In this document: piece by piece, positions 26,806 to 44,277 of the stretch
Numbering within the stretch: the stretch's first letter is position 1
How the letters are laid out: every line of letters starts with the position of its first letter
Assembly (NCBI GenBank): GCA_024398965.1
Contig: JAKSIF010000001.1
Location: 62,001-126,000 of the forward strand
Direction of reading: 5' to 3'
DNA: 64,000 bases
Source: Fibrobacter sp.
GTDB taxonomy: Bacteria > Fibrobacterota > Fibrobacteria > Fibrobacterales > Fibrobacteraceae
The notes under the pieces: model-generated
Database searches by the model: none
Told to the model about the DNA's origin: nothing
The model's input: only the letters and a program-made list of their open reading frames with translations
Made by a program: the position numbers and the translations under genes

Positions 26806-27996
26806 CTACATATCACCGGTTTTTAAGCCAGTCTTATCCCTAATGCGGGTCAAAACCAATCCTAAGAGCAGGTAGAATACCGCCTGTATGGCCAGGGGAT
26901 ACAACAGGGAAGCCGCATCGTAGATATCAGCGCCACGCTGTTCTATGGCAAGCCAGGCAGGAACCGCAAAAGTTGTAGGCAAAATGCAGGACAGCCCTTT
27001 CATCCAGGCAGGAATCAAATAGGAAGGCCAGCTAAAGTTGGCAAGGAAAAGTATCGGGATGCTCATGTACAAAAACAGCTGCATGCTGGATTCTCGACGG
27101 AGAAAAACCTGAGAAAGAACCATCCCGAAATTGATGGTGGAGAAAAGGAACACAATGGCAAAAGCCACCATTGGAAGGACTTCCCCACGACGGGGGAAGC
27201 TGAACACATTGTAGATGACAAAGTGGTAGAAAAGGATAAAGGAACAGTAATGAACAAAATAGGCAAAGGAACGGCCAAAATAGCGGTAGGGCATCTTTTC
27301 GTTTTCCACAACGCTATCCCGGAACTTGCCTCGGAACTTTCTGTGAGCGCGGGCGCCACCGAGAATACAGATACCTATCACCAGCGTCTGTTGCAAGATA
27401 AGAACCAGCACACTTGGGACAACATAATTGGAATAGCTGCCCGTGTTGTTATACATGGTCTGGATACTGATAGGAACAGGATCTCGCATTGCCATGGCCT
27501 TGGCTGCCGGGGCCTTCTTGCCCAAGGCAATCCGTTTCACCTTTGTAGTTGCTCCAACAGTAAGGGCGCATGTGGTAAAGGCTGTCCCGATATTGCCATG
27601 GAGCATCACGTAAGCCCCATGGGTAAATACATTCACATCCACGTCGCCGCCATTGCGCAATGTCTTTTCCATGTCCTGGGGAATGACCATGAAGCCGAAA
27701 ATATCTTCGCGGGCCAAGGCCTCTTCTGCCTCGCGAATATCCGAATAGATGTAACGAACATCGATCTGCTGAGCGGCAGCGGACATCTGCGTTAACTGGC
27801 GAGACATGACCGTATGATCCAAGTCCACAACAGCCACGGGAGCCTTAGTCACCGTCTGGTTCATGTAAGGAGTTGGATAATAGAAAGCGTAAAGTACACC
27901 AGCCACCACAAGCAGCAGCATGGCGGCAGGATCCGTATAGAACAGTTTCCATTCCGCAAAGGCAACCTTGAACAAGCGCTTAAAGAGATCAATCAT
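26806..27996 (-). CDS. ABC-2 type transporter permease, second of pair
   Basis: Inner-membrane permease of the ABC2 (YbhR/YhhJ-like) type. One helix lies near residues 20-36, a periplasmic domain of about 150 residues follows, then five helices at about 180-385. The start at 27996 (MIDLFKRLFKV) overlaps the previous gene by 8 bp, and GAGGAGG lies six bases upstream within that gene, showing translational coupling. It would form a heterodimer with the preceding permease. No ATP-binding subunit is encoded in the operon. Confidence 0.85.
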   Translation of the reverse strand: MIDLFKRLFKVAFAEWKLFYTDPAAMLLLVVAGVLYAFYYPTPYMNQTVTKAPVAVVDLDHTVMSRQLTQMSAAAQQIDVRYIYSDIREAEEALAREDIFGFMVIPQDMEKTLRNGGDVDVNVFTHGAYVMLHGNIGTAFTTCALTVGATTKVKRIALGKKAPAAKAMAMRDPVPISIQTMYNNTGSYSNYVVPSVLVLILQQTLVIGICILGGARAHRKFRGKFRDSVVENEKMPYRYFGRSFAYFVHYCSFILFYHFVIYNVFSFPRRGEVLPMVAFAIVFLFSTINFGMVLSQVFLRRESSMQLFLYMSIPILFLANFSWPSYLIPAWMKGLSCILPTTFAVPAWLAIEQRGADIYDAASLLYPLAIQAVFYLLLGLVLTRIRDKTGLKTGDM

Positions 27997-29140
27997 CGTC
28001 AACCTCCTCGACGCCAGCAGATTCATGATTTGCAGCCCGTTTCCAGCGCATAAACATTAGACGGCCAGCAAGAAGGTGCCAGAACAAGGCCATGCCCAAC
28101 AGGATTTCAATGGATTCCCACGCATGAGCCTTACCGATGGGACCAAGCAACATGGCCGCCTGAGCCTTCAGGATATGGGTCAGGGGCAACATAAAGGCAA
28201 AGCAGCGAACCGCAAAGGGCATGGCCATCAGCGGGAAGGTCTGCCCGGCGAAAGCGAAGGCCGGGCCTGCGATAACGCCGGCGGCACTGGAGGACATACG
28301 CATGTTTCCTGTAATCCCGACAAAAGCCGCACCCAAGCCTGTACAAGCTAGAACCATCGCCAGGTGGCCTGCGGACACCACAATGAACTCATCCAACGTC
28401 ATGGGCGTAAGGAACCGATGGGTATAGGCGTACACAGCCATCAGCGACAGCCACAGGATGACAACTAGCGGCAAGATGGAGGCTAGGCCCAAAACAACAC
28501 GGGAACCGCCGGCGGCGTCCAGAAATTCCTTGACGCGCCTATCGCGGAACGGATAGCTCATGATGTAGACCGCAACAAGAATGGCTGCCAAGTGGAACAC
28601 CGCTGTAACAAGGCCCATCCCGAGGAAGCCCTGGTAGTTTCCGCTGGTATTGCCCACGGACTGCAGCTGGACACGAACAGGCTCTGCCATAGATTTCGTG
28701 AAGATATTCGCCCCGATGGTGGAGAACACCGTACGGATTTCCTTTGTGGCAAAGGTATTGGTCAGGTAGTTCTGCCCGCTGGAATAAATGGGAACCACAG
28801 GTGTTTCCATACGGAGGGCGCGACGTTCCATTTCATAGGGCAGCACAATGAACGCCTGCAGGTCACCGCGGACTACCGCATGTTCACATTCCGAAAGTTC
28901 CGCACAAACCAGCCTTACATCAATAACAGGACTTGCCCTAAGGCCTTGTTCCAATTCATCAGCCAGCTGGCTTCGATCCTGCTTTACAATTCCCACCGGA
29001 ATATGCTGGATGATTTCAGCGGAAAACACCCCCACCATAAAGACGGAGACGCCCACAGGCAAAACAAGCATAATCAGCCACAACACAAGATTATGACTGA
29101 AATAGAGCTTGCGGATTGTTCTGAAAAAATCTTTCAGCAC
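27989..29140 (-). CDS. ABC-2 type transporter permease, first of pair
   Basis: Inner-membrane ABC2-family permease with the same plan as the following gene: an N-terminal helix at about 18-36, a periplasmic domain at about 40-170, then five or six helices. The C terminus is acidic (GVEEVDDD). The likely start is GTG. It lies 16 bp after the HlyD gene in a TolC-HlyD-permease-permease operon, an arrangement used for drug or lipid export across both membranes. Confidence 0.85.
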   Translation of the reverse strand: MLKDFFRTIRKLYFSHNLVLWLIMLVLPVGVSVFMVGVFSAEIIQHIPVGIVKQDRSQLADELEQGLRASPVIDVRLVCAELSECEHAVVRGDLQAFIVLPYEMERRALRMETPVVPIYSSGQNYLTNTFATKEIRTVFSTIGANIFTKSMAEPVRVQLQSVGNTSGNYQGFLGMGLVTAVFHLAAILVAVYIMSYPFRDRRVKEFLDAAGGSRVVLGLASILPLVVILWLSLMAVYAYTHRFLTPMTLDEFIVVSAGHLAMVLACTGLGAAFVGITGNMRMSSSAAGVIAGPAFAFAGQTFPLMAMPFAVRCFAFMLPLTHILKAQAAMLLGPIGKAHAWESIEILLGMALFWHLLAGRLMFMRWKRAANHESAGVEEVDDD

Positions 29141-29156
29141 AGGTTAACCTGACTAA

Positions 29157-30155
29157 TTACTTGATCTGATCCAACGGGAAAAGAACACTCATACCCGGAC
29201 GAAGGTTTTCAACTTTCTTGGTGGGGCGCATTCTGACTTCAAAGCTCTTCAAGTCAAAGCCACCACTTTCCTTGGAACTGCGCCAGGTTGCGTAATCGCC
29301 GACAGATGCGATGTAGGAAACTTCCATATCCACCTGGGTATCCAGAGCAGGAATGAACATCATGAACGTCTTGCCCTTGGAAACATTCTTAAGCATGTCC
29401 TCACGAACATGGAACACTGCCCAGGAATCTTCAAGATCGGTAATGGCAACCACAGGCATTCCGGAGCCAACAACCTCGCCTTCTTCCACCAGTTTTACGG
29501 AAACTTCGCCTGCGATGGGAGCGCGAATCTTTGTTTCTTCAAGATAGGCGTCCACTTCGGCATTGGCGCCCTTGGCCTGCAACACCAGGGCATTTGCAGC
29601 AGCCTTGTCTTCGGAGCGGGCGCCGGCAAGAGCCTGGTCGTACTGAGCCTTGGCTGCATCAGCGGCGGACTGAGAAGCCTTCATCTGGGTTTCAGCCTCA
29701 TCGCGCTTTTGAAGGGGAAGCACACCTTCATTATAAAGTTTCTGAACACGGTCATAGGTATTCTTTGCCAGGTTTGCAGCCTCCTGGGCTCGATCGGCCA
29801 TGGCCTTCAATGCAGTAACGTCTTCGGAACGGGCGCCGTTCTTCGCCTTGCTTGCCTGGGCACGGGCTGCACCAAGAGCACCCTGAGCCTGCATCTTCTT
29901 TGCCTCAATTTCAGGGCTGCTGATAACAGCAACAATGGCATTCTTTTCTACCATGTCCCCTTCGCGGAAGAACAGGTTCTCGATACGGCCAGGAACCTTT
30001 CCTGCCACAAGAACACGGCGGGCTTCCATTTGCCCTTGCAAGTAGGCTTCACGAGGTTCTGTAGCAAACTTCTGCAATGTCATGACGCCAAAAACAATCA
30101 AGGCGATCAACAACAAAACGACGAAAACCTTTCCCAAGATCTTGATGACGTTCAT
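29157..30155 (-). CDS. HlyD-family periplasmic adaptor
   Basis: Membrane fusion protein linking the inner-membrane permeases to TolC. A membrane anchor lies at residues 8-26. The half-lipoyl segment is near 45-75 (RRVLVAGKVPGRIENLFFREGDMV), and a long alpha-hairpin at about 80-185 is rich in Ala/Lys/Gln and carries GARSEDV twice. The second lipoyl half and beta-barrel follow (IRAPIAGEVSVKLVEEGEVV). GAGGAG lies in the end of the tolC gene, only 3 bp of gap separating the two frames. Confidence 0.9.
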   Translation of the reverse strand: MNVIKILGKVFVVLLLIALIVFGVMTLQKFATEPREAYLQGQMEARRVLVAGKVPGRIENLFFREGDMVEKNAIVAVISSPEIEAKKMQAQGALGAARAQASKAKNGARSEDVTALKAMADRAQEAANLAKNTYDRVQKLYNEGVLPLQKRDEAETQMKASQSAADAAKAQYDQALAGARSEDKAAANALVLQAKGANAEVDAYLEETKIRAPIAGEVSVKLVEEGEVVGSGMPVVAITDLEDSWAVFHVREDMLKNVSKGKTFMMFIPALDTQVDMEVSYIASVGDYATWRSSKESGGFDLKSFEVRMRPTKKVENLRPGMSVLFPLDQIK

Positions 30156-30158
30156 TCT

Positions 30159-31964
30159 TTACTCCTCTTTAATTCCTTCGTTTGCATTCTCGGTTGCAAC
30201 AGCCGGCTGCACATTCTCCGGTGCAGCAGTTTCCTGAACATTTCCGGCAGCAGGGACTTCTGCAGTTTTATCAGCGGCAGGTGTTTCCTGCGGCGCATTC
30301 TCGACAACCGGAGCCGGTTCCGCTACGGCATTCACCGGTTCAGCAATCTTTTCCGGTTCCTGAGTATCAACAGGTTTCAAATCTTTCAGCATGGATCCCG
30401 CATTAACAACTTCACCACTTGCCTCCAGCAGACCAAGCCATGCAATTACTGCGTCATAATGAGCCTTCAAGTCGGCGACCTGCAAACGGGACAAAGCAAG
30501 CTCTGCATCAACAACATCCAAGCCAGTTGCAAGGCCGGCTTCGTATGCCAGGGTCTGACTACGATGAGCCTCCTCGGCCAATTCACGAGTTTTCTTCAGG
30601 CTCTGTAAGCGGCTCTGGGCATGTTCCTTTTCTCGCCAACGTTTTTCTACCAGAAGGCCGATGTTATCCATGGTCTGTTCTTCCATGCTGGCAAGGGACC
30701 TATCCATGGCCTTGGCGTTTGTCACCTTGGAACGGGTCTCCCCTCCCTTGAACAGATCCCACTGGAGCTTGGCACCCACAGCCCATTCCGGCTCCAGGAT
30801 AGTCAAGTCACGAGTGTAAAGTTCCTTATAGGCAAATAACGCTACCATGGGATAATAGTCACCACGAGCAGCGCTAACTGCATCCTGGCTGCGCTTTCGC
30901 TCCGTACGGAGTTGGCGAAGTCCCGGATGCTTATCCAAGGCCAACTGCTTAAATTCTTCCATGGAAGGAGTCTGTTCTGGAGCCATTACCGGTGTAATTG
31001 CCGTAAGGCTTGTATCCGTATGGAGCAAACTTGCAAGAGCCATTCGAGCAAGGCTCTGGTCACGATAGGAGTCTTCCAGGGCGTTTTCTGCTTCGGCAAG
31101 AGCCACCTCTGCACGCAAACGTTCTGCCTTGCTAATCTGGCCGCCTTCCTCGAGTTTCTTGGAACGTTCCAAATGTTCCTCAAGATTCTTCTTGGTATTT
31201 TCGCGCATGACAGTCAATTCTTCTGCCAGGCGCAAGGTGAAATACTTGGTAGCCACGTCCATCAGAACCGTATTCTGAGCCATGTCGAAAGCAGCCTTTC
31301 GGGCGTTTACGTTTTCCTTGGCAGCGTCATAGGCCGCGGTACGCTTAAAACCAGTAAACAAAGGCCAGATGGCAGTGAGCCTTGCGTTAAAGAATACATC
31401 GTCCTGAACCTTCATCCTGAAGTCATCAGACTTGTCAATCTTGGCGGAGGCCCCAGAACCGTACTCATCGGCCTTCTGCTGGGCCATGTCGTTCACATCC
31501 TTGCTTCCAACCACTCCACTCCAGATATCGCCCGCTTTCGCATCCACCGCTGCCTTGGCCTGTTCCTTGGCAGTAGCTTCCGGCATGCCGGCGGCAACCA
31601 TCTGCTGCACAGCACCATCGTAAGCCTGCTGGTAGGTTTGCTTGTAAGCCTCATTATACACAGAAAGATAGGCCTTGGAGTATGCTGCCGCCCCAGCGAT
31701 TTCGCTGAGAGGAGCCTGCAGGGAACTCAGGTCGATGGTAATGGGATCGTTGATCTTTGTAACACTTGCCGTCAATGTCAACGAAGGCAAGAAACGGGAG
31801 CGAGCCTCGGTCTGGCCGCTTTCAGCCATTTCGACCTTTGCCTTTTCCGCCTTGATTTGCGAATTGCTGGAACGGGCCATATCAATGGCGTCCTGCAAGG
31901 AAATCGGCATTCCCAAAGCGGGAACCACCGCCATACATGCTGCTAACCACTTAATGTTTTTCAT
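30159..31964 (-). CDS. TolC-family outer-membrane efflux protein with Pro/Glu-rich tail
   Basis: Outer-membrane channel of the efflux operon, first gene. A signal peptide (residues 1-18) is followed by TolC helical repeats (AIDMARSSNSQIKAEKAKVEMAES and the second repeat near 250-310). A non-TolC insertion at about 85-165 carries alternating Tyr/Ala/Gln helices (YSKAYLSVYNEAYKQTYQQA). The last 100 residues are a low-complexity Ala/Glu/Pro/Val tail, probably periplasmic. The gene is preceded by an AT-rich gap holding the operon promoter. Confidence 0.88.
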   Translation of the reverse strand: MKNIKWLAACMAVVPALGMPISLQDAIDMARSSNSQIKAEKAKVEMAESGQTEARSRFLPSLTLTASVTKINDPITIDLSSLQAPLSEIAGAAAYSKAYLSVYNEAYKQTYQQAYDGAVQQMVAAGMPEATAKEQAKAAVDAKAGDIWSGVVGSKDVNDMAQQKADEYGSGASAKIDKSDDFRMKVQDDVFFNARLTAIWPLFTGFKRTAAYDAAKENVNARKAAFDMAQNTVLMDVATKYFTLRLAEELTVMRENTKKNLEEHLERSKKLEEGGQISKAERLRAEVALAEAENALEDSYRDQSLARMALASLLHTDTSLTAITPVMAPEQTPSMEEFKQLALDKHPGLRQLRTERKRSQDAVSAARGDYYPMVALFAYKELYTRDLTILEPEWAVGAKLQWDLFKGGETRSKVTNAKAMDRSLASMEEQTMDNIGLLVEKRWREKEHAQSRLQSLKKTRELAEEAHRSQTLAYEAGLATGLDVVDAELALSRLQVADLKAHYDAVIAWLGLLEASGEVVNAGSMLKDLKPVDTQEPEKIAEPVNAVAEPAPVVENAPQETPAADKTAEVPAAGNVQETAAPENVQPAVATENANEGIKEE

Positions 31965-32088
31965 ACGGGAAATAAGATAAAAAATGAGTTTTAGGGCGAC
32001 TATACCAAAACCCTACAAAAACTTACTTTTTTTAACTAAATTGCTTACAAAAATGTTACGTAATAAAATTCGCATTTTTATGACAAAA

Positions 32089-32113
32089 AAGGCTCCCCAA
32101 AGGGAGCCTTCTT
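32089..32113 (-). terminator. Intrinsic terminator after the VTC operon
   Basis: The perfect 9-bp stem AAGGCTCCC/GGGAGCCTT with a CAAA-type loop lies directly past the lamin-tail gene. TTTTTTG follows in the minus direction. Confidence 0.85.
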
Positions 32114-32131: not shown

Positions 32132-33766
32132 TTACTTACCCGGAGTAGGTTCCGCAGCCTTCCATGCAGAGGGGCCGTAACCCATGGTGGTCAAATCCAC
32201 ACGCTGCAGGCTATATCCTGCGCCGTCGGCTTCAGTGAGGCCAGCCCAAGCGTCAGAATACAAAGTAGCATCATGCCAGGAGTAGAAGAACCTGCCATCG
32301 GCAGACTTTGTATAAGGTTCCTTGACAGCAATGGTTTCACCACGGTTAGACAGCTTACCAGTATAGGTGAAAATCTGGACGTTTTCAGGAATCTTGTAGC
32401 TTGCACGAACAAGGTCCGGACCCCAGCCAGGAATGCTGACATCTTCCAGGGTTTCGGGAATAAGAAGAATCATGGAATGAGCCGGGAATACAGCCTCAGA
32501 GGGGAATTCCAAGCCAATGCCTTCGACCTTCCAGCCCTTGCCAACACTTGCATTGTAGAACTTAATGTCCTGCTCACCAGCATTCACCAGTTCCAGGAAT
32601 TCAAAGGGCAAGTCGCCCTTGTCATTGGGATGATAGTGGATTTCGTTGATATACACGGAGCCAAGCTTAAGAGCGGAGTTCGGAGCACCCGGAGTGGCTT
32701 CTACAAGAGGTCCCTGTGCAACGGAGCCGTCGGCAACGTCAACGGTACCGCTGACACCAGTGCCAGCAGGAAGCCAAATGCTGGATTCCTGACCTTCAAC
32801 AGCACCATATAGGTAGATTTCGCCACCCTGCTCGCTAACAATCAGCTCAGAATCAAAGGCTTCAGCACCATCAAGTACCAGATAACCGCCGGCAGGAACA
32901 ACACCAGACTTAATTGTCAATGTTTTTCCAGTCATCTTCACAAAGACGGTCCAACCCGTTACATCAACAGCTTCGGAACCAGAGTTGTAAAGTTCCATCC
33001 ATGCAGTTTTTCCAATGGACCAAGGCATCACTTCATTGATTCGAACCGTGTTAACGACATCAACACAAGCATCATTGCCAACACCAGGGTTTCCGCCAGC
33101 TGCGGCACTAGCACACCAGGAAACAGACTGAGCAGCAATGCCACCAGTATACACCAGGGTTCTGCCCTTTCCATCAGCAAGGCTCGGCCAAGGAGGTTCA
33201 CTGCTGAATGCACAAGTCACGTCGCCTTCGCCGCGAACCTTCACATTTACAACGCCACCCTCATTGATCATCTTACCCGTCATGCCGCCAAAGACACGGC
33301 CAGCAAAGTTGGGATAGGCAGCATTGAACAAAGCCAGGTCGTTAGCGACAACAATGTACTCACCCTTCTTCAAGGGTTCTGCCGGGAAAGAGAAATCTAC
33401 ATCACCGCTCAGGTGCAGCTGGAAGTTCTGCATGTTGTCCATGTCAGAACCACCGGCAATATATACTTCCACCCATTCCAAGGCGGAACCATCGGGAGCG
33501 TTGTACATGATTTCAGAACAAGCCATCTGCGGTTCGTCCGTATCGGACAGAGACGAACTTGAAACCAAGACGTCATTGGAAGGCTTATTGGAAGAACTAG
33601 AACCAGGATTCTGGGCAGAGCCAGAATCAGAGGAGTTATTCCCTGGTGTGACAGGAACGTTGTCATCCGGAGGAGTTACCGGAGAAGAGCTATCATCGGA
33701 GCATGCGCCCATCACGGAGAGAAGGGCGGCGCTTGCGCCAGTCAAGAGAATCTTTTTGATATCCAT
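32132..33766 (-). CDS. Lipoprotein with three lamin-tail domains
   Basis: Surface or periplasmic lipoprotein. The lipobox VMGAC is near residue 21, followed by a Ser/Pro/Asn-rich spacer (22-70). Three lamin-tail (LTD) beta-sandwiches follow: about 80-200 (CSEIMYNAPDGSALEWVEVY), 235-360 (VRINEVMPWSIGKTAWMELYN) and 370-544 (VYINEIHYHPNDKG). Each closes with a PGxPN/TPG-type ending. The ATG at 33766 has AGGA eight bases upstream and is preferred to the one at 33775. It is the last gene of the DUF4956-HlyD-TolC-VTC operon, 32 bp after VTC. In other genomes LTD proteins often carry surface or binding functions; the role here is unknown. Confidence 0.82.
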   Translation of the reverse strand: MDIKKILLTGASAALLSVMGACSDDSSSPVTPPDDNVPVTPGNNSSDSGSAQNPGSSSSNKPSNDVLVSSSSLSDTDEPQMACSEIMYNAPDGSALEWVEVYIAGGSDMDNMQNFQLHLSGDVDFSFPAEPLKKGEYIVVANDLALFNAAYPNFAGRVFGGMTGKMINEGGVVNVKVRGEGDVTCAFSSEPPWPSLADGKGRTLVYTGGIAAQSVSWCASAAAGGNPGVGNDACVDVVNTVRINEVMPWSIGKTAWMELYNSGSEAVDVTGWTVFVKMTGKTLTIKSGVVPAGGYLVLDGAEAFDSELIVSEQGGEIYLYGAVEGQESSIWLPAGTGVSGTVDVADGSVAQGPLVEATPGAPNSALKLGSVYINEIHYHPNDKGDLPFEFLELVNAGEQDIKFYNASVGKGWKVEGIGLEFPSEAVFPAHSMILLIPETLEDVSIPGWGPDLVRASYKIPENVQIFTYTGKLSNRGETIAVKEPYTKSADGRFFYSWHDATLYSDAWAGLTEADGAGYSLQRVDLTTMGYGPSAWKAAEPTPGK

Positions 33767-33798
33767 AGGAGACATCCTTTTAGAGCTTTTACTCTATA

Positions 33799-34629
33799 TT
33801 ACAAATTTTCTTCCAATGTGGGTCCCAGTTTGGTCCAATAGGGGGTCTTAAATCCCTTAGGATGTTCGTATACCCTGGACCATTCCGCAGCAGCATTGCC
33901 AAATTTCGAGAAACCACCCTGTTTCAAGTTCAAGAAACGGATCAGGTCGATCATCCAATAGGGAACCTGCAGGCAGGGGCACTTCAGTTCAAGCACAGCA
34001 TCGCAACCCGGCAGGAAAAATCTCGGCAGGCCGGTGGAATGCATGTAGTGGGGGTCCACCGTGTAGTCAAAGCCATTTTCTTCACGGAATCGCATGCCCG
34101 TATCAATGGTAACGCGAGAATACTCCTCACGAAGGCCAAACCAGGCACGACGCTTGTACTGTGTCAAAAGACGAGGATGAGCATTATGCAATTCAGTCTT
34201 GTACAGGAAATCCTTGAGATACTTGCGGTCCTTGTCAGACTTGCAGGGCCATTCCTCCGGCTTCATATGCCACACATCGCCAGGGCAAATTCCCTTGATG
34301 GTTGCACGGCTCTTGTAGCAGATGTTCTTGATCTTGCGCTTCACCTCAAAATGGAAAGTTCCATCCTGTGCAGGGTGTTCCCCGTAGGTGCGGATGCGCA
34401 TGTTGAAGCGGTCCAGCAGCTGCTTCTTTTTCCAGCCGAGGAAAGTCCAGCTAGGAGAATCCAGATACAGGTTGGTAATCCAGTAGAAACCACCCGGGGT
34501 AATCTTGGAGTAATAGTCTTCTTCGCAATAGGGCGCAATGAAGGCGCCGATCTTGTCGGCCCATTCCACAGGGATGTGGTACTTTAGCTCGAAACGTTCG
34601 AGAAGACTGAAACCGCGGGCTTCTGCCAT
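33799..34629 (-). CDS. VTC-domain polyphosphate polymerase-like protein
   Basis: A 276-residue soluble protein forming a single VTC domain, the tunnel-fold enzyme that makes inorganic polyphosphate from nucleoside triphosphates. The basic tunnel residues appear intact: RFELKYHI, MRIRTY (R-x-R), FEVKRKI, QYKRRAWF and the metal Glu/Lys pair in AVLELKCP. There is no signal peptide or membrane helix. It follows the TolC gene with one base between stop and start, so they are translationally linked. The VTC fold is firm; activity is inferred from conserved residues and substrate could differ. Confidence 0.85.
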   Translation of the reverse strand: MAEARGFSLLERFELKYHIPVEWADKIGAFIAPYCEEDYYSKITPGGFYWITNLYLDSPSWTFLGWKKKQLLDRFNMRIRTYGEHPAQDGTFHFEVKRKIKNICYKSRATIKGICPGDVWHMKPEEWPCKSDKDRKYLKDFLYKTELHNAHPRLLTQYKRRAWFGLREEYSRVTIDTGMRFREENGFDYTVDPHYMHSTGLPRFFLPGCDAVLELKCPCLQVPYWMIDLIRFLNLKQGGFSKFGNAAAEWSRVYEHPKGFKTPYWTKLGPTLEENL

Positions 34630-34630
34630 G

Positions 34631-36013
34631 CTACTTCAAGCCCTTCTGCAGATGGTTCTGTACACCTTCCTGGCCAAGAACACCGGCGTATTCCAGCAAG
34701 GTCAGGTAACCGCTATAAATTTCATTTTCCAGCTTGATAGCCTTCATGTCGCTTTCCAGAGCGCTTTCACGAGCACGCAGAAGCAGCAAGGGATCGGAGC
34801 CAGCATCCTTGGCGAACTGCTCAAAAATGGAACCGGCGTTAACCTTTTCTACAAATTCCTTCTGAACCTTCCACTGGGCGATAAGCGCATTGATATCTTC
34901 CACCAAGCGGGCAACCTTCTGGTTCACATCGCGAACCTTTTCCATGTATTCGCCTTCGGCGTCCAACTCCGCAACCTGATCTCTAAGATCAGAGTCCTTA
35001 TTGCTGTCGAAGAAAGGCAGACGGAAAGCCACGTTTGCAAAGAACTTGTCAGAGGTCTTTCGATTATCAGTTTCGGGAACAAGAATTCTTGCTGTTGAGG
35101 TACAACCCAATTGAGAGGTACAACCGGTTTCCTTTTCGAAATCCGATCTATAGTCACTATAGGAACCGGTGCCATAAACGTCGTATGCATCCAGGTCCTT
35201 ATACTTTTCCATCAAAGATTCCACCTTCAAGGAATAGCCAATACCAACGTGGGAGATGTAGTCTCGATCCTTGGAAGCGTCCTGCTTAGCCTTGGACTTT
35301 TCAGACTTCATCTTGCCCGCAGCCATAGCAATTGCCGGGAAAGACTCATCTACAGTCAAGCCATTTGACAGCTGTGCTTCAATTTCTTCCATGGAGGGAA
35401 GCCACGTAGTGTCAAGATCCACCTCGTTAAAGTCCGGAACCCAGATCCTCATCTTGTTCTCAGCATTCAACAAGGAGGTGCTGTCATTCATGATGTCGGC
35501 CCTGAGGGAAGATTCCTTTTCCAGGGAGGTCATGAGATCCTGGGGATTAAAAGTCGGAGAACCGGCCTTCATGTGGAGAACTTCAATACGGTCAGAATTG
35601 ACCTGGTAGAGTTCCTTGTTCATGGAAGCAATACGACGACGGTTCAAATAATGAATCGCACGTTCATAACGGTCATAGAGGAGGACGGCACGGTCTGCAA
35701 CCAAGTGAGCCTTCTGGTAGGCAACCTGGGCATCCCAGTGTTCCTTGTCGGCAGCGCCTTCACCAAAGGACTTGGGAGTGACACGCAGTTCAAAATCGTG
35801 GCTTGCAAAGCTGAAACCATCCAGCTTGTAGCGGAACTCCAGCTTGTCCCAGAGTTTGGTATTCCTTTCGGTAGAAGTCATCTCGGCGCGCTTTTGTGCG
35901 GCCTGGTAACGGGGGTCGTCATCAACAGACTTCAGCAGAGACTCCCAAGTAAGGGGAGCGGCAAAGGCGGAAGCAGACAAGGCGAGAGAAATCAACCCAA
36001 ACTTATTCATCAT
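34631..36013 (-). CDS. TolC-like outer-membrane protein of the VTC operon
   Basis: Signal peptide (residues 1-18) followed by long helical segments with TolC-type repeats (AQVAYQKAHLVADRAVLLYDRYERAI; DLRDQVAELDAEGEYMEKVRDV). At 460 residues it fits an outer-membrane channel. A region around 255-300 contains two Cys spaced five residues apart (TGCTSQLGCTST). It is more diverged from classical TolC than the one at 30-32 kb. It lies 42 bp after the HlyD gene and 1 bp before VTC. The TolC assignment is by pattern and position. Confidence 0.72.
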   Translation of the reverse strand: MMNKFGLISLALSASAFAAPLTWESLLKSVDDDPRYQAAQKRAEMTSTERNTKLWDKLEFRYKLDGFSFASHDFELRVTPKSFGEGAADKEHWDAQVAYQKAHLVADRAVLLYDRYERAIHYLNRRRIASMNKELYQVNSDRIEVLHMKAGSPTFNPQDLMTSLEKESSLRADIMNDSTSLLNAENKMRIWVPDFNEVDLDTTWLPSMEEIEAQLSNGLTVDESFPAIAMAAGKMKSEKSKAKQDASKDRDYISHVGIGYSLKVESLMEKYKDLDAYDVYGTGSYSDYRSDFEKETGCTSQLGCTSTARILVPETDNRKTSDKFFANVAFRLPFFDSNKDSDLRDQVAELDAEGEYMEKVRDVNQKVARLVEDINALIAQWKVQKEFVEKVNAGSIFEQFAKDAGSDPLLLLRARESALESDMKAIKLENEIYSGYLTLLEYAGVLGQEGVQNHLQKGLK

Positions 36014-36055
36014 TCAAAATACCAAACTAAAATGTTCTGTTTTCAAAGACGTGCA

Positions 36056-37120
36056 TTACTCAGAAATGGAAACCATTTCACCCAGGAGGAAGGGATTGTC
36101 TTCGGAGATCTGGATAATGACTTCGCGACCGTGAATCGGCATTTCGGGCATCTTCCACATACGGGTGGGGAATTCCACGATGCGGCTGGAAAGACCAATG
36201 ACCTTGCCCTTAACAGCCTTGCCATTTCCACCAAGGGAATGAACCTTGACTGTTTCGCCCAGGTCCATGTGCTGGTACATGCGTTCGTGAATGTAGCCAC
36301 GGATCAGGGTCGGAGACCTGTGAGTAAGGGTTACGACAGGAGCAAAGCTGGAAAGCTTTTCACCATCGCGAGCATTGACGGAACCAACAACCCAACTTTC
36401 CTTAGCAATCTGGATCAATTCTTCCTGCTGCTTCTGGAGTTCGGCAAGTTCCTTCTTCAAGTTTTCTGCTTCGGTCTTGCCGGTAGTCTTCTGCAGGCGG
36501 CCGCTGCTTCTCAAAAGCTTGATCTGCTCATTTGCGTTGGACTGGAGAACGGCCAATTCGTTCTTGAGGCTCTTGATGCGCATTGCCATAGCATCGTTAC
36601 CGTCGGATTCCGCATTGGAATTCTTGAGGCTCTTCAGCTTGGCTGCGATTTCCTTATTCTTCTGGTATTCCGTTTCGAGGTTACGGATTTCAGACTTGAG
36701 GGTAAGGCTTCTTGTGGCGAGGTCGGCCTTGACTTCGGCAACCTTCTGGTCGATTTCAGCGGTAGACAGGTTGCTGCGACCTTCAAGGGCATCCAGTTCA
36801 CGAGTGAGTTCCGTAATGCGCATGGTCAGGTCGGGGCGGTTCAGTTCCACGATGGTATCGCCAGCTTCGATAGACTGGCCAGGCATCACATGGACCTTGA
36901 CCACTTCGGTGGGGCTGGGCAAGCTGATAGTCGTTTCAGCAGCTTCGGCCACACCTTGGAACATGGACACCTTACCTTGATAGACAATACCAAGAATGAT
37001 TATGACAACAATGCCAAGCACCCAGGCAAGAGAAAGCTTATGCTTATAGACGTGAGCAACACCCGGGTTTGTCTTGTGCTTGTTCCAGAATGCGTCAAGA
37101 GCTTCTTCAATCTTATTCAT
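36056..37120 (-). CDS. HlyD-like adaptor of the VTC operon
   Basis: Membrane fusion protein: a short cytoplasmic N terminus, a membrane helix at about 30-48 (LAWVLGIVVIIILGIVY), a lipoyl-type segment (VVKVHVMPGQSIEAGDTIVE), and a very long coiled coil at about 110-235 full of Leu/Lys/Glu heptads. The C-terminal beta domain follows (ETVKVHSLGGNGKAVKGKVI). GGGAG lies six bases before the ATG. It is second in the operon, 11 bp after the DUF4956 gene. It should bridge the inner membrane to the TolC-like protein. Confidence 0.82.
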   Translation of the reverse strand: MNKIEEALDAFWNKHKTNPGVAHVYKHKLSLAWVLGIVVIIILGIVYQGKVSMFQGVAEAAETTISLPSPTEVVKVHVMPGQSIEAGDTIVELNRPDLTMRITELTRELDALEGRSNLSTAEIDQKVAEVKADLATRSLTLKSEIRNLETEYQKNKEIAAKLKSLKNSNAESDGNDAMAMRIKSLKNELAVLQSNANEQIKLLRSSGRLQKTTGKTEAENLKKELAELQKQQEELIQIAKESWVVGSVNARDGEKLSSFAPVVTLTHRSPTLIRGYIHERMYQHMDLGETVKVHSLGGNGKAVKGKVIGLSSRIVEFPTRMWKMPEMPIHGREVIIQISEDNPFLLGEMVSISE

Positions 37121-37131
37121 CTTAAACTCCC

Positions 37132-37815
37132 TTACATCTCGGTGGTTGCGTCTTGCATCATGAACTGAACGTCGGAGATGCCTTCAATCTTGGAAAGTTC
37201 TTCCAGGATTTCTGCAGCAGGCTTGCTTGCACGAAGACGGACCTGGTAGGCCACATCAACGCGGGCACCGCCATCCACTTCGCGCATGGTAATCAAGATA
37301 TAAGTCTTAAGGCTCTTTCTCAGGACATCTTCAATAGCCTGTCGGGGAGCAGATTCATTGGGAAGAGCAAAACGAAGCATGCCGTCAAAGAAGTGCTTGG
37401 TGCCAAGGCCCGTACGAGAAAGAAGGAATGCAACGATACAGAAGGCGATGGTACCGCCGGCAGCAGCACCCCATGCATAAACACCGCAACCGATACCTGC
37501 GCCCAGGGAGGCGAAGATGAACATGATGTCGCGGGGATCCTTGAAGCTGGTACGGAAACGAACCACGGAAAGTGCGCCCATCATACCGAGGCCACGGCCC
37601 ACGTTATCACCGATGGCAGACATCACCATGGCGGCAACCACAGAACTCAGCACGATACCCTGGACAAAGTTACGGGAATAGGAAAGTCCGAGGAAGGTCT
37701 TCTCGTAGGTCCATGCAATCACAGAGGAAAGGATAAAGGCGAGAATTAAGGTATAAGCCAGCGTAATCAGGGAAGCATTGGCTGTACCAGATTGGACCGC
37801 GAGTAGGTCGAGCAT
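37132..37815 (-). CDS. DUF4956 integral membrane protein
   Basis: A 227-residue protein with four membrane helices in its first 150 residues and a cytoplasmic ferredoxin-like C-terminal domain (about 165-227). The conserved DUF4956 signature GALSVVRFRTSFKDPRDI lies at about 82-99. DUF4956 proteins are commonly encoded beside VTC-domain proteins, as here; their function is not known, and the helix/C-domain plan recalls MgtC. First gene of the five-gene operon, with GGAG six bases before the ATG. Confidence 0.85.
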   Translation of the reverse strand: MLDLLAVQSGTANASLITLAYTLILAFILSSVIAWTYEKTFLGLSYSRNFVQGIVLSSVVAAMVMSAIGDNVGRGLGMMGALSVVRFRTSFKDPRDIMFIFASLGAGIGCGVYAWGAAAGGTIAFCIVAFLLSRTGLGTKHFFDGMLRFALPNESAPRQAIEDVLRKSLKTYILITMREVDGGARVDVAYQVRLRASKPAAEILEELSKIEGISDVQFMMQDATTEM

Positions 37816-37980: not shown

Positions 37981-39003
37981 TTAACTAAACCGACCTGCCA
38001 CCTGTTTACGGCGGCGTCCCCTCTCGGAAATCAAGGCTTCAAGCAGGAACAACAAGGCGGCAAGGCCAAGGAAAATCTGGTAACGATCCTGGTAATTTTC
38101 CATACGATCGCTCGCCTGTTCCTTCTTTTCCAATGTTGCAATTTCAGTCAAGACCTTCTGCAACTGGAACTCGCCAGGGCTTGCGTAAAAATACAGACCG
38201 CCGGTCACGCTGGCAATTTCTTGAAGGGTTCCGTCTTCAAGGCGGGTCGTGACGATATTCCCTTGCACGTCCTTCTTGTAGGCGACTTCACCATTACGGC
38301 CCGGCACAGGAATAGGCACGCCTTCGCGAGAGCCAATACCGATGGTATAAATACGGATTCCCATTTCGGCCGCTTCCTTGGCGGCGTTCACTGCGGCAGC
38401 CTCAAGTTCTTCGCCATCGCTCATGAGGATCATGACCGCATACTGGGCGGAGTTCCCGCGATACATGGACATTCCCTTACGGATGGCATTTTCAAGGTTG
38501 GTGCCCGGCATGAGCCAGCCCGGAGTAAGTTCCTTCAGCATCATCTGGACAGTGCCGTAATCAAGAGTCAGCGGCACCATGACCTGAGCTTCGCCGGAGA
38601 AAGCGACCAGCCCTACGCGGTCACCGGAAAGAGATTCCAGGAAGGCGGAAATTTCGTGACGGCTGCGGGTAAGACGGTTCGGCTTAACATCCTCGGCCAA
38701 CATGGAAAGGGATATGTCCTGAAGAAGAACGAGGTCCAGCCCCTTACGCTCGATATGTTCCATCTTGCGGCCCCACTGAGGGCGGGCAAGGGCAACAAAC
38801 AAGAAGGCGATGGCCAAAAGCAGTATCAACACCTTAGCCAGTCGACGCCAAGGAGACACCGAGGTTGAAAGCTTTGGCAGCATGGTCAAGGAGACAAAGC
38901 GTGCGGCCAGCTTCTTACGGCGATGAAACGCGTAGACAAAAAGCAGGGCGAAAAGCGGAAGCGTCAGCAGGCCCCACAGAAAACTCGGTTCAGCAAAGCG
39001 CAT
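37981..39003 (-). CDS. batB: BatB-like von Willebrand factor A membrane protein
   Basis: VWA protein of the Bat cluster: two membrane helices at the N terminus (about 7-25 and 57-75), a VWA domain at about 90-290 with the metal-ion site DISLSM and SDGEE, and a C-terminal helix near 312-328. Its ATG overlaps the stop of the upstream BatA gene by one base (TAATG), so the pair is translationally coupled. The ligand of the VWA domain is unknown. Confidence 0.82.
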   Translation of the reverse strand: MRFAEPSFLWGLLTLPLFALLFVYAFHRRKKLAARFVSLTMLPKLSTSVSPWRRLAKVLILLLAIAFLFVALARPQWGRKMEHIERKGLDLVLLQDISLSMLAEDVKPNRLTRSRHEISAFLESLSGDRVGLVAFSGEAQVMVPLTLDYGTVQMMLKELTPGWLMPGTNLENAIRKGMSMYRGNSAQYAVMILMSDGEELEAAAVNAAKEAAEMGIRIYTIGIGSREGVPIPVPGRNGEVAYKKDVQGNIVTTRLEDGTLQEIASVTGGLYFYASPGEFQLQKVLTEIATLEKKEQASDRMENYQDRYQIFLGLAALLFLLEALISERGRRRKQVAGRFS

Positions 39004-40106
39004 TACGGAATCCTCACAAAGCGGGTGTTAGCCAGCAACAGTTCAAGCAAAATCAGCAGAGCACCTGCCAGCAGCCAAGGGTAGAACTTTTCTGCATAGC
39101 GGGCGTAGGCAATGGTTTCGATTTCGGTCTTTTCCAGTTCATCAATCTCGGAATAGATTCGTTCCAGTTCTTCCTTGTTTTCGGCACGATAGAATCGACC
39201 GCCAGTCTTAAGGGCAACGCCCTTCAACACATTTTCGTCAATTCCTTCTTCCGGAGTGATTTCACGTTCACCCCAGCTGATTTCGCCAGTCCAGGGATTC
39301 TGTTGGAAGGATAGAATCTTGCCTTTCTTCTTACCCACACCGATGGTGTAGACCTTGACACCAAGGGACTGAGCCACTTCGGCCGCACGCATAGGCGGAA
39401 CAAGGCTTGCGTTGTCGCGGCCATCCGTCAGCAGCACAACCACCTTGGACTTGGCTTCGGACTTTTGCAAACGTGCAAGGGCATTCATCAAACCATCACC
39501 AATGGCGGTACGGCCAGCAATAACGGAATCCTTAGCCAGGTCATCGCTGGCCGCAAGGATTTCAAGCAGGGAGCCATAATCCAAGGTCAGGGGGCACTGG
39601 GTCATCGCCCTGGAACCAAAGGCGGAAAGACCAATACGGTCGCTATGGCGCTTCTGGATGAACTCGGCAATGACTTCCTGGGCGTAACCCATTCGGCTGT
39701 ATTTCCAGTAGTCACCAGATTTCAGAATGCGTTCTGCATTCATCACACCGAGTTTTGCCTGTTCGGCGCGTGTAAGCATATCCAAGGTACCCATGGAACC
39801 AGAAACGTCCAAGGTCAGCATGATATCCACCCCATCGGTAGAGGTGTATTCCACTTCCATGGCATTCTGGGGGCGGGCTAGGGCGAAAACGAAACAGCAA
39901 AGGGCAGCCAGTCGCAGGGCCGGCACAATATGGCGAAAACGGACTCGGTTACTGGGGGCAGCCTTCTTGGCAATGGAAAGAGCAGGAAACTTAATGGTAC
40001 TTTTACGACGGCGATTACGGTAAATGTAGGAGGCAATCAGAACCGGAACCAAAACCAAAAGCCAAAAGGCCTCCGGATTCTGAAAGTGTATCGATCCAAT
40101 ATCCAT
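39003..40106 (-). CDS. batA: BatA-like von Willebrand factor A membrane protein
   Basis: VWA membrane protein with an N-terminal helix (about 10-27), a second at about 55-72, a VWA domain with the MIDAS motif DVSGSM and TDGRDN, and a C-terminal helix near 345-362. A roughly 40-residue insert (MLTRAEQAKLGVMNAERIL and following) sits between the MIDAS loop and the next helix. I start at the ATG at 40106 with GGAG five bases upstream; an upstream extension to 40145 lacks a ribosome site. MoxR and DUF58 genes, usual neighbours, are absent. Confidence 0.82.
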   Translation of the reverse strand: MDIGSIHFQNPEAFWLLVLVPVLIASYIYRNRRRKSTIKFPALSIAKKAAPSNRVRFRHIVPALRLAALCCFVFALARPQNAMEVEYTSTDGVDIMLTLDVSGSMGTLDMLTRAEQAKLGVMNAERILKSGDYWKYSRMGYAQEVIAEFIQKRHSDRIGLSAFGSRAMTQCPLTLDYGSLLEILAASDDLAKDSVIAGRTAIGDGLMNALARLQKSEAKSKVVVLLTDGRDNASLVPPMRAAEVAQSLGVKVYTIGVGKKKGKILSFQQNPWTGEISWGEREITPEEGIDENVLKGVALKTGGRFYRAENKEELERIYSEIDELEKTEIETIAYARYAEKFYPWLLAGALLILLELLLANTRFVRIP

Positions 40107-40262
40107 AAAATCTCCAAAATAGCACAAAAATCTATCAGTACCCAAAGAATATACAAAAAAGCCAATCCGTCAACCACAACCCCGTTCAAGGGAATTCGGC
40201 CCAGTTTATTATTTTATGGCACATAACTGTAAAATACGGACACGGAATATCGAGGATTTTCA

Positions 40263-42129: not shown

Positions 42130-44277
42130 ATGAAAAAAATGTACTTAAAGGCTATTGCATTGGGCTCCCTTGCAGCCTTGGCAGCATGCAGCGACAGTAG
42201 CAGCGCCCCCTCCGTTCCAAGCGTTAGCGAGAACGAATTCCCAGAACAGGTTATTTGCACCGACGGAAGCATTGTAAGCGACATTGCGGAATGCGCAATC
42301 GTCAGCAACGGCGTTGTACAGGAAGAGACACAGATTATGTATTCATGCGTAGACGGCACACTGGTTCCAAGCGAATCTCTTTGCCAAAACGGCGTCGCAG
42401 ACTCAACCGTAACAACAACCTATATTTGCGAAAACGGTCAAAAGGTTTTGGATTCTAGCGAATGTCCGACGACAATCACCTGCACAGACGGGACCGTGGT
42501 GAATGACGCCAGCGAATGCGTACAGGAAATCATCAAGCCTGCTAGCAGCAGCTCTCAAGTCCCGGAATCTTCTACAGGAAGCGTTGACCAGGAAAACCCC
42601 GCCACTCAAGAAACGCCGATCGATCCTGAAAATCCAATCATTTCCGACAATCCCGAAACTGCGGTTTCCAGCAGTTCCATTGGGGAATCCTCCAGCAGTT
42701 ATGAATCGGCATCCAACGGGAACACGCCCGCCATCGCCTACACCGCTGCAGGCGCCAGCGTTCAAAACGACAACGGATGCGTCACCATTAACGGAGGCGA
42801 GGTTGTCATTTCCTGCGCCGGCGATTACGATTTCAGCGGAAGTTACTCCGGCGCAGACGCACAGATTCGAGTCTACTCCCCCAAGGCTGATTCCGGCGTC
42901 TACCTGAATCTCCGCGGCCTAACGCTGGAGAATACGGCAGACGCTCCCATCTACGTTCAGATGGCAAGCAAGACCTTCGTTGTAGCCAAGAAGGAAACCG
43001 TCAACACCTTAAGCGATGGCAAGACCCGTACAAAGTCTTTTACCTACAACAACAGCAATGGCGTTCAGAAGACAGACACCACCGCAGCAGCCATCTATTC
43101 CAAGGACGACCTGACAATCAAGGGCGAAGGTTCCCTCACCGTTAACGGAAACTTCAACAACGGCATTCAAAGCAGCAACGACCTGCGTTTCCGTGGCGAA
43201 ACCATTTTGAATGTTAGCGCGGTCAACAACGGCATCAAGGGCAAGGGAACCGTCGATATTGAAAAAGGCATTATCACCATCGCAGCAACAAACGGCGATG
43301 GCATCAAGAGTGACGAATGCACTATCAATGGTAGCGATACCACCATTACCGAAGGCAAGGGCATCGTAAACATCAAGGGTGGTACCATCAAGATTACCAA
43401 AGCTGGTGACGACGGCATTCAAGCTTTCAACTACGTGATGATTTCCGACAGTGTCAGCATTCCTTCCATCACCATCAATTCCACCGGAAAGGGCCTGGTT
43501 TCTGAAAACCGGGTCTACGTGAACGGCGGCGAAATCAATGTAACCTCCGGCGATGACGGCGTCCACAGCAATCTAAACGTCTACTTCAACGGCGGAAAGA
43601 CAACCATCAGCGCCAAGGGTAACGACGGCGTTCATGCAGATTCCACCCTGTACATCAATGACGGAACTATCCATGTGAAGGAATCCTACGAAGGGCTTGA
43701 AGCATGGTACATCAAGGCAAACGGCGGCATCACCGATGTCTATGCAACCGACGACGGTTGGAATGCAGCTGGCGGCAATGACGCATCCGGCAACAACACC
43801 CAGACTGGCGGCAACAACTGGGGCGGCCGTCCCGGCGGATTCGGCGGCGGTTTCGGAGGCATGGGAAGTTCCAGCGGCTTCCTCACTGTAACCGGTGGCG
43901 TTCATTATGTCAAGACTGGTTCCGGCGACACCGACGGCATGGACAGCAACGGCGAACTCACCATCAGCGGAGGCGTTGTGGTGGTGGAATGCCAGATTAG
44001 CGGCGGTATGGGCGGATCCTTTGATTCCGACGGAACCGCAACCATCACTAGCAAGACCCTCCTAGGCTTTAGCGGCCGTCAGAAATCCGAGGCAGGAACT
44101 AACTACACCTTGAGCTTTAACACCAACAGCTACTACGGCAATTCCAACATTGCCTTCAAGCCCACGTTCTCGGGCAGCTACGCCCAGGGCACAAGCCAGG
44201 TGTCTACCGTAAGTAACGTCAACAGCTATGCAAAGAGCGTTACCCTGCCCAGTGGCAACACTATCTACTACAACTAA
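42130..44277 (+). CDS. Cthe_2159-type carbohydrate-binding lipoprotein
   Basis: Exported lipoprotein (lipobox LAALAAC, Cys near residue 20). Residues 40-140 hold four short Cys repeats of the form Y/I-x-C-x-D/N-G-x-x-V/L (ICTDGSIVSDIAEC, YSCVDGTLVPSESLC, YICENGQKVLDSSEC, ITCTDGTVVNDASEC). A Ser/Pro linker follows at 140-200. The rest is a parallel beta-helix of the Cthe_2159 (DUF4353) family, seen as repeated short rungs such as NGIKGKGTVDIEKGIITI and DGIKSDECTI. A glycine-rich loop lies near 560-580. The family founder binds acidic plant polysaccharides with calcium, which suggests pectin binding here. Confidence 0.8.
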   Translation: MKKMYLKAIALGSLAALAACSDSSSAPSVPSVSENEFPEQVICTDGSIVSDIAECAIVSNGVVQEETQIMYSCVDGTLVPSESLCQNGVADSTVTTTYICENGQKVLDSSECPTTITCTDGTVVNDASECVQEIIKPASSSSQVPESSTGSVDQENPATQETPIDPENPIISDNPETAVSSSSIGESSSSYESASNGNTPAIAYTAAGASVQNDNGCVTINGGEVVISCAGDYDFSGSYSGADAQIRVYSPKADSGVYLNLRGLTLENTADAPIYVQMASKTFVVAKKETVNTLSDGKTRTKSFTYNNSNGVQKTDTTAAAIYSKDDLTIKGEGSLTVNGNFNNGIQSSNDLRFRGETILNVSAVNNGIKGKGTVDIEKGIITIAATNGDGIKSDECTINGSDTTITEGKGIVNIKGGTIKITKAGDDGIQAFNYVMISDSVSIPSITINSTGKGLVSENRVYVNGGEINVTSGDDGVHSNLNVYFNGGKTTISAKGNDGVHADSTLYINDGTIHVKESYEGLEAWYIKANGGITDVYATDDGWNAAGGNDASGNNTQTGGNNWGGRPGGFGGGFGGMGSSSGFLTVTGGVHYVKTGSGDTDGMDSNGELTISGGVVVVECQISGGMGGSFDSDGTATITSKTLLGFSGRQKSEAGTNYTLSFNTNSYYGNSNIAFKPTFSGSYAQGTSQVSTVSNVNSYAKSVTLPSGNTIYYN

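Follow-up and report, generated by a model that had tools for sequence, protein, structure and literature searches.

What would a Gram-negative bacterium make, and where would it send it, with a VTC-type enzyme, an inner-membrane protein, a periplasmic adaptor and an outer-membrane channel encoded side by side? This question is raised by a five-gene operon of Fibrobacter sp. in the 64-kb stretch of DNA analysed here as a whole (hereafter the window), whose genes all run in one direction in the order DUF4956, HlyD, TolC-like, VTC and triple-LTD lipoprotein:

37132..37815, minus strand: DUF4956 inner-membrane protein, 227 aa (Pfam PF16316, 7e-13)
36056..37120, minus strand: HlyD-type periplasmic adaptor (Pfam HlyD_3, 4e-7), one N-terminal TM helix, 29-47
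34631..36013, minus strand: TolC-like outer-membrane channel with signal peptide, so assigned by AlphaFold2 (pLDDT 88) and Foldseek
33799..34629, minus strand: VTC-domain (triphosphate tunnel) enzyme (Pfam VTC, 1e-29), proposed polyphosphate polymerase
32132..33775, minus strand: lipoprotein with three lamin-tail (LTD) domains (Pfam LTD, three stretches, 4e-25)
32085..32110, minus strand: intrinsic terminator closing the operon, a strong stem-loop with a T run (-16.7 kcal/mol)

The intergenic gaps measure 11, 42, 1 and 23 bp, the last becoming 32 bp when counted from ATG 33766, the likely start of the LTD lipoprotein, which yields the MDIKK beginning seen in relatives and places the lipobox cysteine at residue 22. 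The five co-directed genes with gaps of 11, 42, 1 and 32 bp, as given in a preliminary description of this DNA, are thereby confirmed, and its statement that no ATPase or RND pump is present was borne out as well, since the operon holds no ABC, RND or MFS gene and none is constant among the scanned neighbour genes. A membrane glycosyltransferase synthase is likewise absent from the five genes by Pfam, and neither RNA elements nor tRNAs were found within the window. We considered the downstream HlyD/TolC/ABC-2 genes (26806-31964) as a possible part of the operon and rejected them, because the terminator lies between and the two units are separable: at another locus (L048) the HlyD/TolC/ABC-2 unit sits beyond vWA genes, away from the VTC cassette. 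The closest relatives of the locus in a DUF4956-anchored scan were Fibrobacter MAGs, with 93-96% identity in DUF4956.

Co-inheritance of the cassette and its partners

The adaptor of this operon represents a distinct subfamily of HlyD-type proteins that co-occurs with VTC and DUF4956. Among 150 Fibrobacterota genomes, three independent profile searches detected the HlyD subfamily in 93, this type of VTC in 94 and this type of DUF4956 in 92, and the genome sets were nested, with all three proteins together in 92; the type cut-offs (VTC, E < 1e-45; DUF4956, E < 1e-90) were set by us on distributions that are both clearly bimodal. The two deviating genomes, G139 and G153, are incomplete, their contigs ending inside the cassette, and not one of the 150 carries the HlyD subfamily without the cassette type of VTC. 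HlyD/TolC genes of this kind regularly found apart from VTC and DUF4956, which the preliminary description had named as counter-evidence, were looked for and did not turn up; the exception is one genome (G073) in which a partial paralogous set (HlyD-propeller, TolC and LTD) lies on a second contig beside a full cassette. The reverse situation does exist in the phylum, where loci L035-L039, two of them with CotH (L038 and L039), encode VTC and DUF4956 free of any conduit, so that the VTC-DUF4956 core does not need one. The DUF4956 proteins of conduit-free loci form a different subtype, whose matches to the cassette DUF4956 profile are no better than E 1e-12 to 1e-19.

Beyond this phylum, the DUF4956-anchored scan found DUF4956 accompanied by HlyD, TolC and VTC in Desulfobacterota, Gammaproteobacteria, Bdellovibrionota and Delongbacteria. 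It also gave a Planctomycetota contig too short to show more than DUF4956 and HlyD, and a gammaproteobacterial locus (L128) with no TolC gene between HlyD and VTC. An HlyD-anchored search of 291 Desulfobacteria gave 16 matches at E < 1e-32 and nothing further down to 1e-20. Wherever enough contig was available, TolC and VTC stood beside HlyD (14/14), and DUF4956 lay on the same contig in 13 of the 14 cases, the fourteenth (G160) having it on another contig (L119). These Desulfobacteria cassettes come in at least three gene orders, e.g., DUF4956-HlyD-TolC-VTC, CotH-HlyD-TolC-VTC-DUF4956 and HlyD-VTC-TolC, and a set that is kept under changed gene order is a stronger sign of joint function than a conserved order. 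Only 3 of 274 gammaproteobacterial genomes possess the cassette, each with DUF4956, HlyD and TolC together. The distance matrices of the four proteins from 29 loci correlate at 0.85-0.95 (0/2000 permutations), which shows joint descent to which shared species history contributes. A chance neighbourhood of the five genes is thus rejected by co-occurrence and cross-phylum linkage, the grouping being far beyond chance, with the gene order of the window found again in other phyla, and the earlier proposal that HlyD and TolC belong with VTC and DUF4956 gains support from strict co-occurrence, linkage through rearranged orders and correlated divergence.

Outside Fibrobacter, the majority of cassettes have genes for CotH and/or LTD surface proteins next to them, some of these proteins bearing type IX-like sorting tails, and in other phyla LTD or CotH-LTD proteins take the place of the LTD lipoprotein. 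The operon in the window has the LTD lipoprotein instead of CotH, the source genome carrying its seven CotH genes at other places. In the Fibrobacterota sample, tallied by hand, CotH is present in 93/94 cassette genomes vs 32/56 others, and by genus in 19/19 vs 10/21, a genome-level correlation that is partly phylogenetic. Since 5 of 15 cassette genomes from outside, including three gammaproteobacterial ones (Woeseia among them), are devoid of CotH, it is a frequent, not an obligatory, partner. Another recurrent companion is a phytase-like beta-propeller. It forms one polypeptide with HlyD in Desulfobacterota, Bdellovibrionota, a Planctomycetota contig and a gammaproteobacterium, and in Chitinispirillaceae it has its own gene adjoining HlyD. 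All ten propeller genes of the Fibrobacterota sample belong to cassette genomes and, except at contig breaks, are fused to or located beside HlyD; no propeller occurs elsewhere in the Fibrobacter genomes of the sample. The CotH partner, the HlyD-attached propeller and the conduit-free VTC-DUF4956-CotH loci of the same phylum had escaped the preliminary description, which was made from the sequence only.

The enzyme, the membrane protein and the channel

The VTC protein, encoded by the only VTC gene of the source genome, is a soluble protein of 276 aa consisting of the VTC domain alone, with no TM helix; SPX and DUF202-type membrane domains are absent by Pfam and hydropathy. Single VTC proteins gave no informative match to the PDB by phmmer. 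The profile built from the cassettes aligned with yeast Vtc4 (3g3q) at E 1e-10, with RxRxYG, ExK, YxRxA, ExK and FSK in register. Across 23 cassettes, K16, R78, R80, E95, K97, K106, R108, Y158, R160, R172, E214, K216, S241 and K242 are invariant, and R78, R80, E214 and K242 align with R264, R266, E426 and K458 of Vtc4. It has been reported that the catalytically mutated Vtc4 used in a cryo-EM study is R264A/R266A/E426N (PMC9911596), and that K458 is catalytic in Vtc4, its equivalent having little effect in a tunnel hydrolase (PMC4641920). Tunnel hydrolases carry four glutamates where Vtc4 has its basic path for polyphosphate (PMC4641920); by motif-based mapping from that work, the positions that can be placed in the cassette enzyme are R12 and K216, both basic, and E14, which is acidic. 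This favours, without settling, a polymerase rather than a hydrolase. As far as residues can tell, then, the earlier view of the VTC protein as polymerase-type agrees with the intact Vtc4 catalytic residues. PPK1 was examined as the polyphosphate source of this genome and rejected, as the source genome has no PF02503 match.

For DUF4956 and the TolC-like protein, sequence searches against the PDB gave no useful match, and structure prediction was therefore used. Cassette-type DUF4956 is almost invariant in length, at 227 aa in nearly every lineage across phyla. Its AlphaFold2 model, of moderate confidence (pLDDT 74.5), combines a set of hydrophobic helices, of which four probably span the membrane, with an ACT-like domain at the C terminus; a weak fold match to the C-terminal domain of MgtC (2lqj, E 0.03) agrees with NCBIfam and with the Pfam assignment of a relative in pointing to an MgtC-like architecture. 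Three invariant arginines (R48, R86 and R88) and a near-invariant lysine (K92) lie inside or beside the membrane region, and the translocation channel of yeast VTC is lined with basic residues (PMC9911596). DUF4956 is the proposed inner-membrane translocator.

The TolC-like protein matched Pfam OEP at 1.4e-3 only, under the Pfam cut-off. Its AlphaFold2 model, based on a 31-sequence alignment, has a mean pLDDT of 88 and displays long helices and strand hairpins as in TolC, and the best 44 Foldseek matches of this model in the PDB belong without exception to the TolC family of channels (TolC/OprM/CusC), with E down to 1.4e-12; the protein thus models as a true TolC fold. In canonical channels such as MtrE, OprN and the second TolC of the window, the last long helix follows a turn with the pattern G-x-x-x-x-x-(D/V)-x-x-D-A, and at this same turn lie the two aspartates that form the acidic entrance of E. 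coli TolC. In the cassette family (40 distinct sequences) the tip motif is GxDPLxLL[KR]x[KR]ES, with leucine at position 7 and alanine, isoleucine or leucine at position 10, where canonical channels have acidic residues, and with basic residues at position 9 in 33/40 and at position 11 in 36/40 sequences. The register was obtained by an ungapped count from the turn glycine and agrees with the model, in which the helix begins at residue 408. Such a loss of the acidic entrance would be expected for a channel conveying a polyanion; the whole-protein charge of the family is not positive and does not point to a basic channel.

The proposed machine and its rivals

Taken together, these observations lead us to suggest, with a probability of roughly 0.55, that the products of all five genes form a single trans-envelope machine which makes and exports polyphosphate or a related polyanion, as a Gram-negative version of a VTC-DUF4956-CotH/LTD module. 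In the cytosol the VTC enzyme would, judging from its conserved residues, polymerise phosphate from ATP; the MgtC-like DUF4956 would pass the polyanion through the inner membrane as it grows, and from there HlyD as adaptor and the divergent TolC as channel would take it through the periplasm and the outer membrane. Since no canonical pump is present, polymerisation and the membrane potential (outside positive) would drive the transport, in the way suggested for yeast VTC. Once outside, the polymer may be bound or used by the LTD lipoprotein, or by the CotH-LTD proteins of most other lineages; in the many lineages whose adaptor bears a phytase-like propeller, this domain may shorten or sense the polymer while it is in the periplasm. 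An extension by HlyD and TolC is to be expected in Gram-negatives if the product has to leave the cell. Going one step further, and here we are speculating against the odds, polyphosphate exported through this polymerase-driven conduit could act as phosphoryl donor for secreted or surface-anchored CotH kinases, which would phosphorylate surface proteins or glycans without extracellular ATP, with the propeller trimming or sensing the polymer.

The same genes could be read with another cargo in mind, and we give some small credence to the possibility that HlyD-TolC exports a glycan or a CotH/LTD protein while VTC and DUF4956 phosphorylate or regulate that product. Such a role may also fall to accessory genes of the Pel clusters in Gram-positives, where CotH, a polyphosphate polymerase and DUF4956 accompany pelDEADAFG in streptococci, clostridia and bifidobacteria (PMC7112168), and the CotH/LTD neighbours of the cassettes fit in as well. 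However, no glycosyltransferase or polysaccharide synthase is encoded in the core or in the scanned syntenic flanking genes, the four genes move across phyla as a complete set with nothing else constant, and the secreted CotH and LTD proteins bear their own lipobox or type IX-like tails.

Also unlikely, in our view, is a stress-responsive efflux system under phosphate or nucleotide control, in which the VTC protein would act as a triphosphate-tunnel hydrolase or signalling enzyme and DUF4956 as an MgtC-like regulator. The MgtC-like architecture of DUF4956, the phosphoesterase-like family of the propeller and E14, a glutamate retained from the acidic patch that hydrolytic tunnel enzymes have and Vtc4 does not, all speak for such an arrangement; yet the second-metal patch is incomplete, with R12 and K216 in place of glutamates, there is an invariant counterpart of Lys-458, which is catalytic in Vtc4 but matters little in a tunnel hydrolase, and an efflux system would be left with no pump. 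As HlyD and TolC are common families, an ordinary efflux operon might in principle have come to lie by chance beside VTC-DUF4956, but this has hardly any probability left, contradicted as it is by the strict co-occurrence, the maintenance of the set in several gene orders and the correlated divergence.

Significance and relation to known systems

Should the polyphosphate-export machine prove real, Gram-negative bacteria would possess a dedicated apparatus that makes and secretes polyphosphate across both membranes, with polymerisation replacing the pump, and hence a tripartite TolC system without any known pump class. It would, in addition, assign a function to DUF4956 and to the cassette-type VTC proteins of bacteria, and offer a concrete supply route to the secreted CotH kinase-like proteins, for which an extracellular phosphate source is not obvious. 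The literature searched, in which subscription journals are thinly covered so that its silence is weak evidence, yielded nothing relevant on a description of the cassette, VTC plus TolC, bacterial polyphosphate export or phosphate donors of CotH, and the published precedent found there for a VTC-type enzyme with DUF4956 and CotH is confined to the Gram-positive Pel clusters (PMC7112168).

The eukaryotic VTC complex (Vtc1/3/4) shares with the cassette the VTC tunnel domain and the same catalytic residues, and in yeast it provides a precedent for synthesis coupled to membrane translocation (PMC9911596). The cassette differs from it in having neither an SPX nor a DUF202-type domain, the separate DUF4956 being the only polytopic partner, and in that delivery would be extracellular, through the outer membrane. 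The Gram-positive Pel accessory genes (PMC7112168) resemble the cassette in gathering a VTC-type enzyme, DUF4956 and CotH in one cluster; HlyD and TolC are absent there and the hosts have no outer membrane, Pel genes were not found here, and the cassette DUF4956 differs in subtype from the conduit-free DUF4956 of Fibrobacterota.

With the TolC-dependent tripartite exporters (type I secretion, AcrAB-TolC, MacAB and EmrAB) the cassette has in common an HlyD-family adaptor and a TolC-fold channel. Unlike them, it is without an ABC, RND or MFS pump, its inner-membrane part would consist of DUF4956 and the polymerase, and its channel tip is basic, not acidic. In synthase-dependent exopolysaccharide secretion (Bcs, Alg, Pga and Pel), polymerisation is coupled to transfer across the inner membrane, after which periplasmic parts and an outer-membrane pore take over, a succession that the cassette would share; the difference is that it has VTC in place of a glycosyltransferase, and a TolC-type channel in place of a beta-barrel porin with a TPR scaffold. 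On the proposed reading, the cassette would count as a form of synthase-coupled secretion with TolC-type parts, which proven polyphosphate export would move towards a new class.

Genes flanking the operon

In most Fibrobacter the five-gene operon is followed by a separate transporter unit, within which, in the window, no ATPase gene was seen; two neighbouring ORFs upstream are retained next to the operon in part of the genus.

26806-31964 of the window: a second set with TolC and HlyD, a TolC-HlyD-ABC-2-ABC-2 unit, separate from the operon
37981-40145, operon's strand (minus): two ORFs, von Willebrand A-like (BatA/BatB-like) by appearance
42130-44277: Cthe_2159-type carbohydrate-binding protein, close to the operon (Pfam, 2e-66)

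At one compared locus (L048), the transporter unit is located across the vWA genes, on their other side.

Cassettes outside Fibrobacterota

Immediately after VTC, two Bdellovibrionota cassettes encode proteins of about 1.1 thousand residues, neither with any Pfam match, and CotH and LTD are absent at both loci.

L121, 12642-16055: post-VTC protein
L129, 12442-15795: post-VTC protein

In Desulfamplus magnetovallimortis (L113, 12242-13107), the VTC reading frame is divided between two overlapping frames.

Partial and conduit-free variants in Fibrobacterota

Some Fibrobacterota genomes carry VTC-DUF4956-CotH triads that are free of the HlyD/TolC conduit.

L038, 5604-9626: triad
L039, 8930-12998: triad

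A paralogous partial cassette (L173, G073:C148) comprises an HlyD-propeller protein, TolC and LTD without VTC or DUF4956, and the same genome has a full cassette too (L174).
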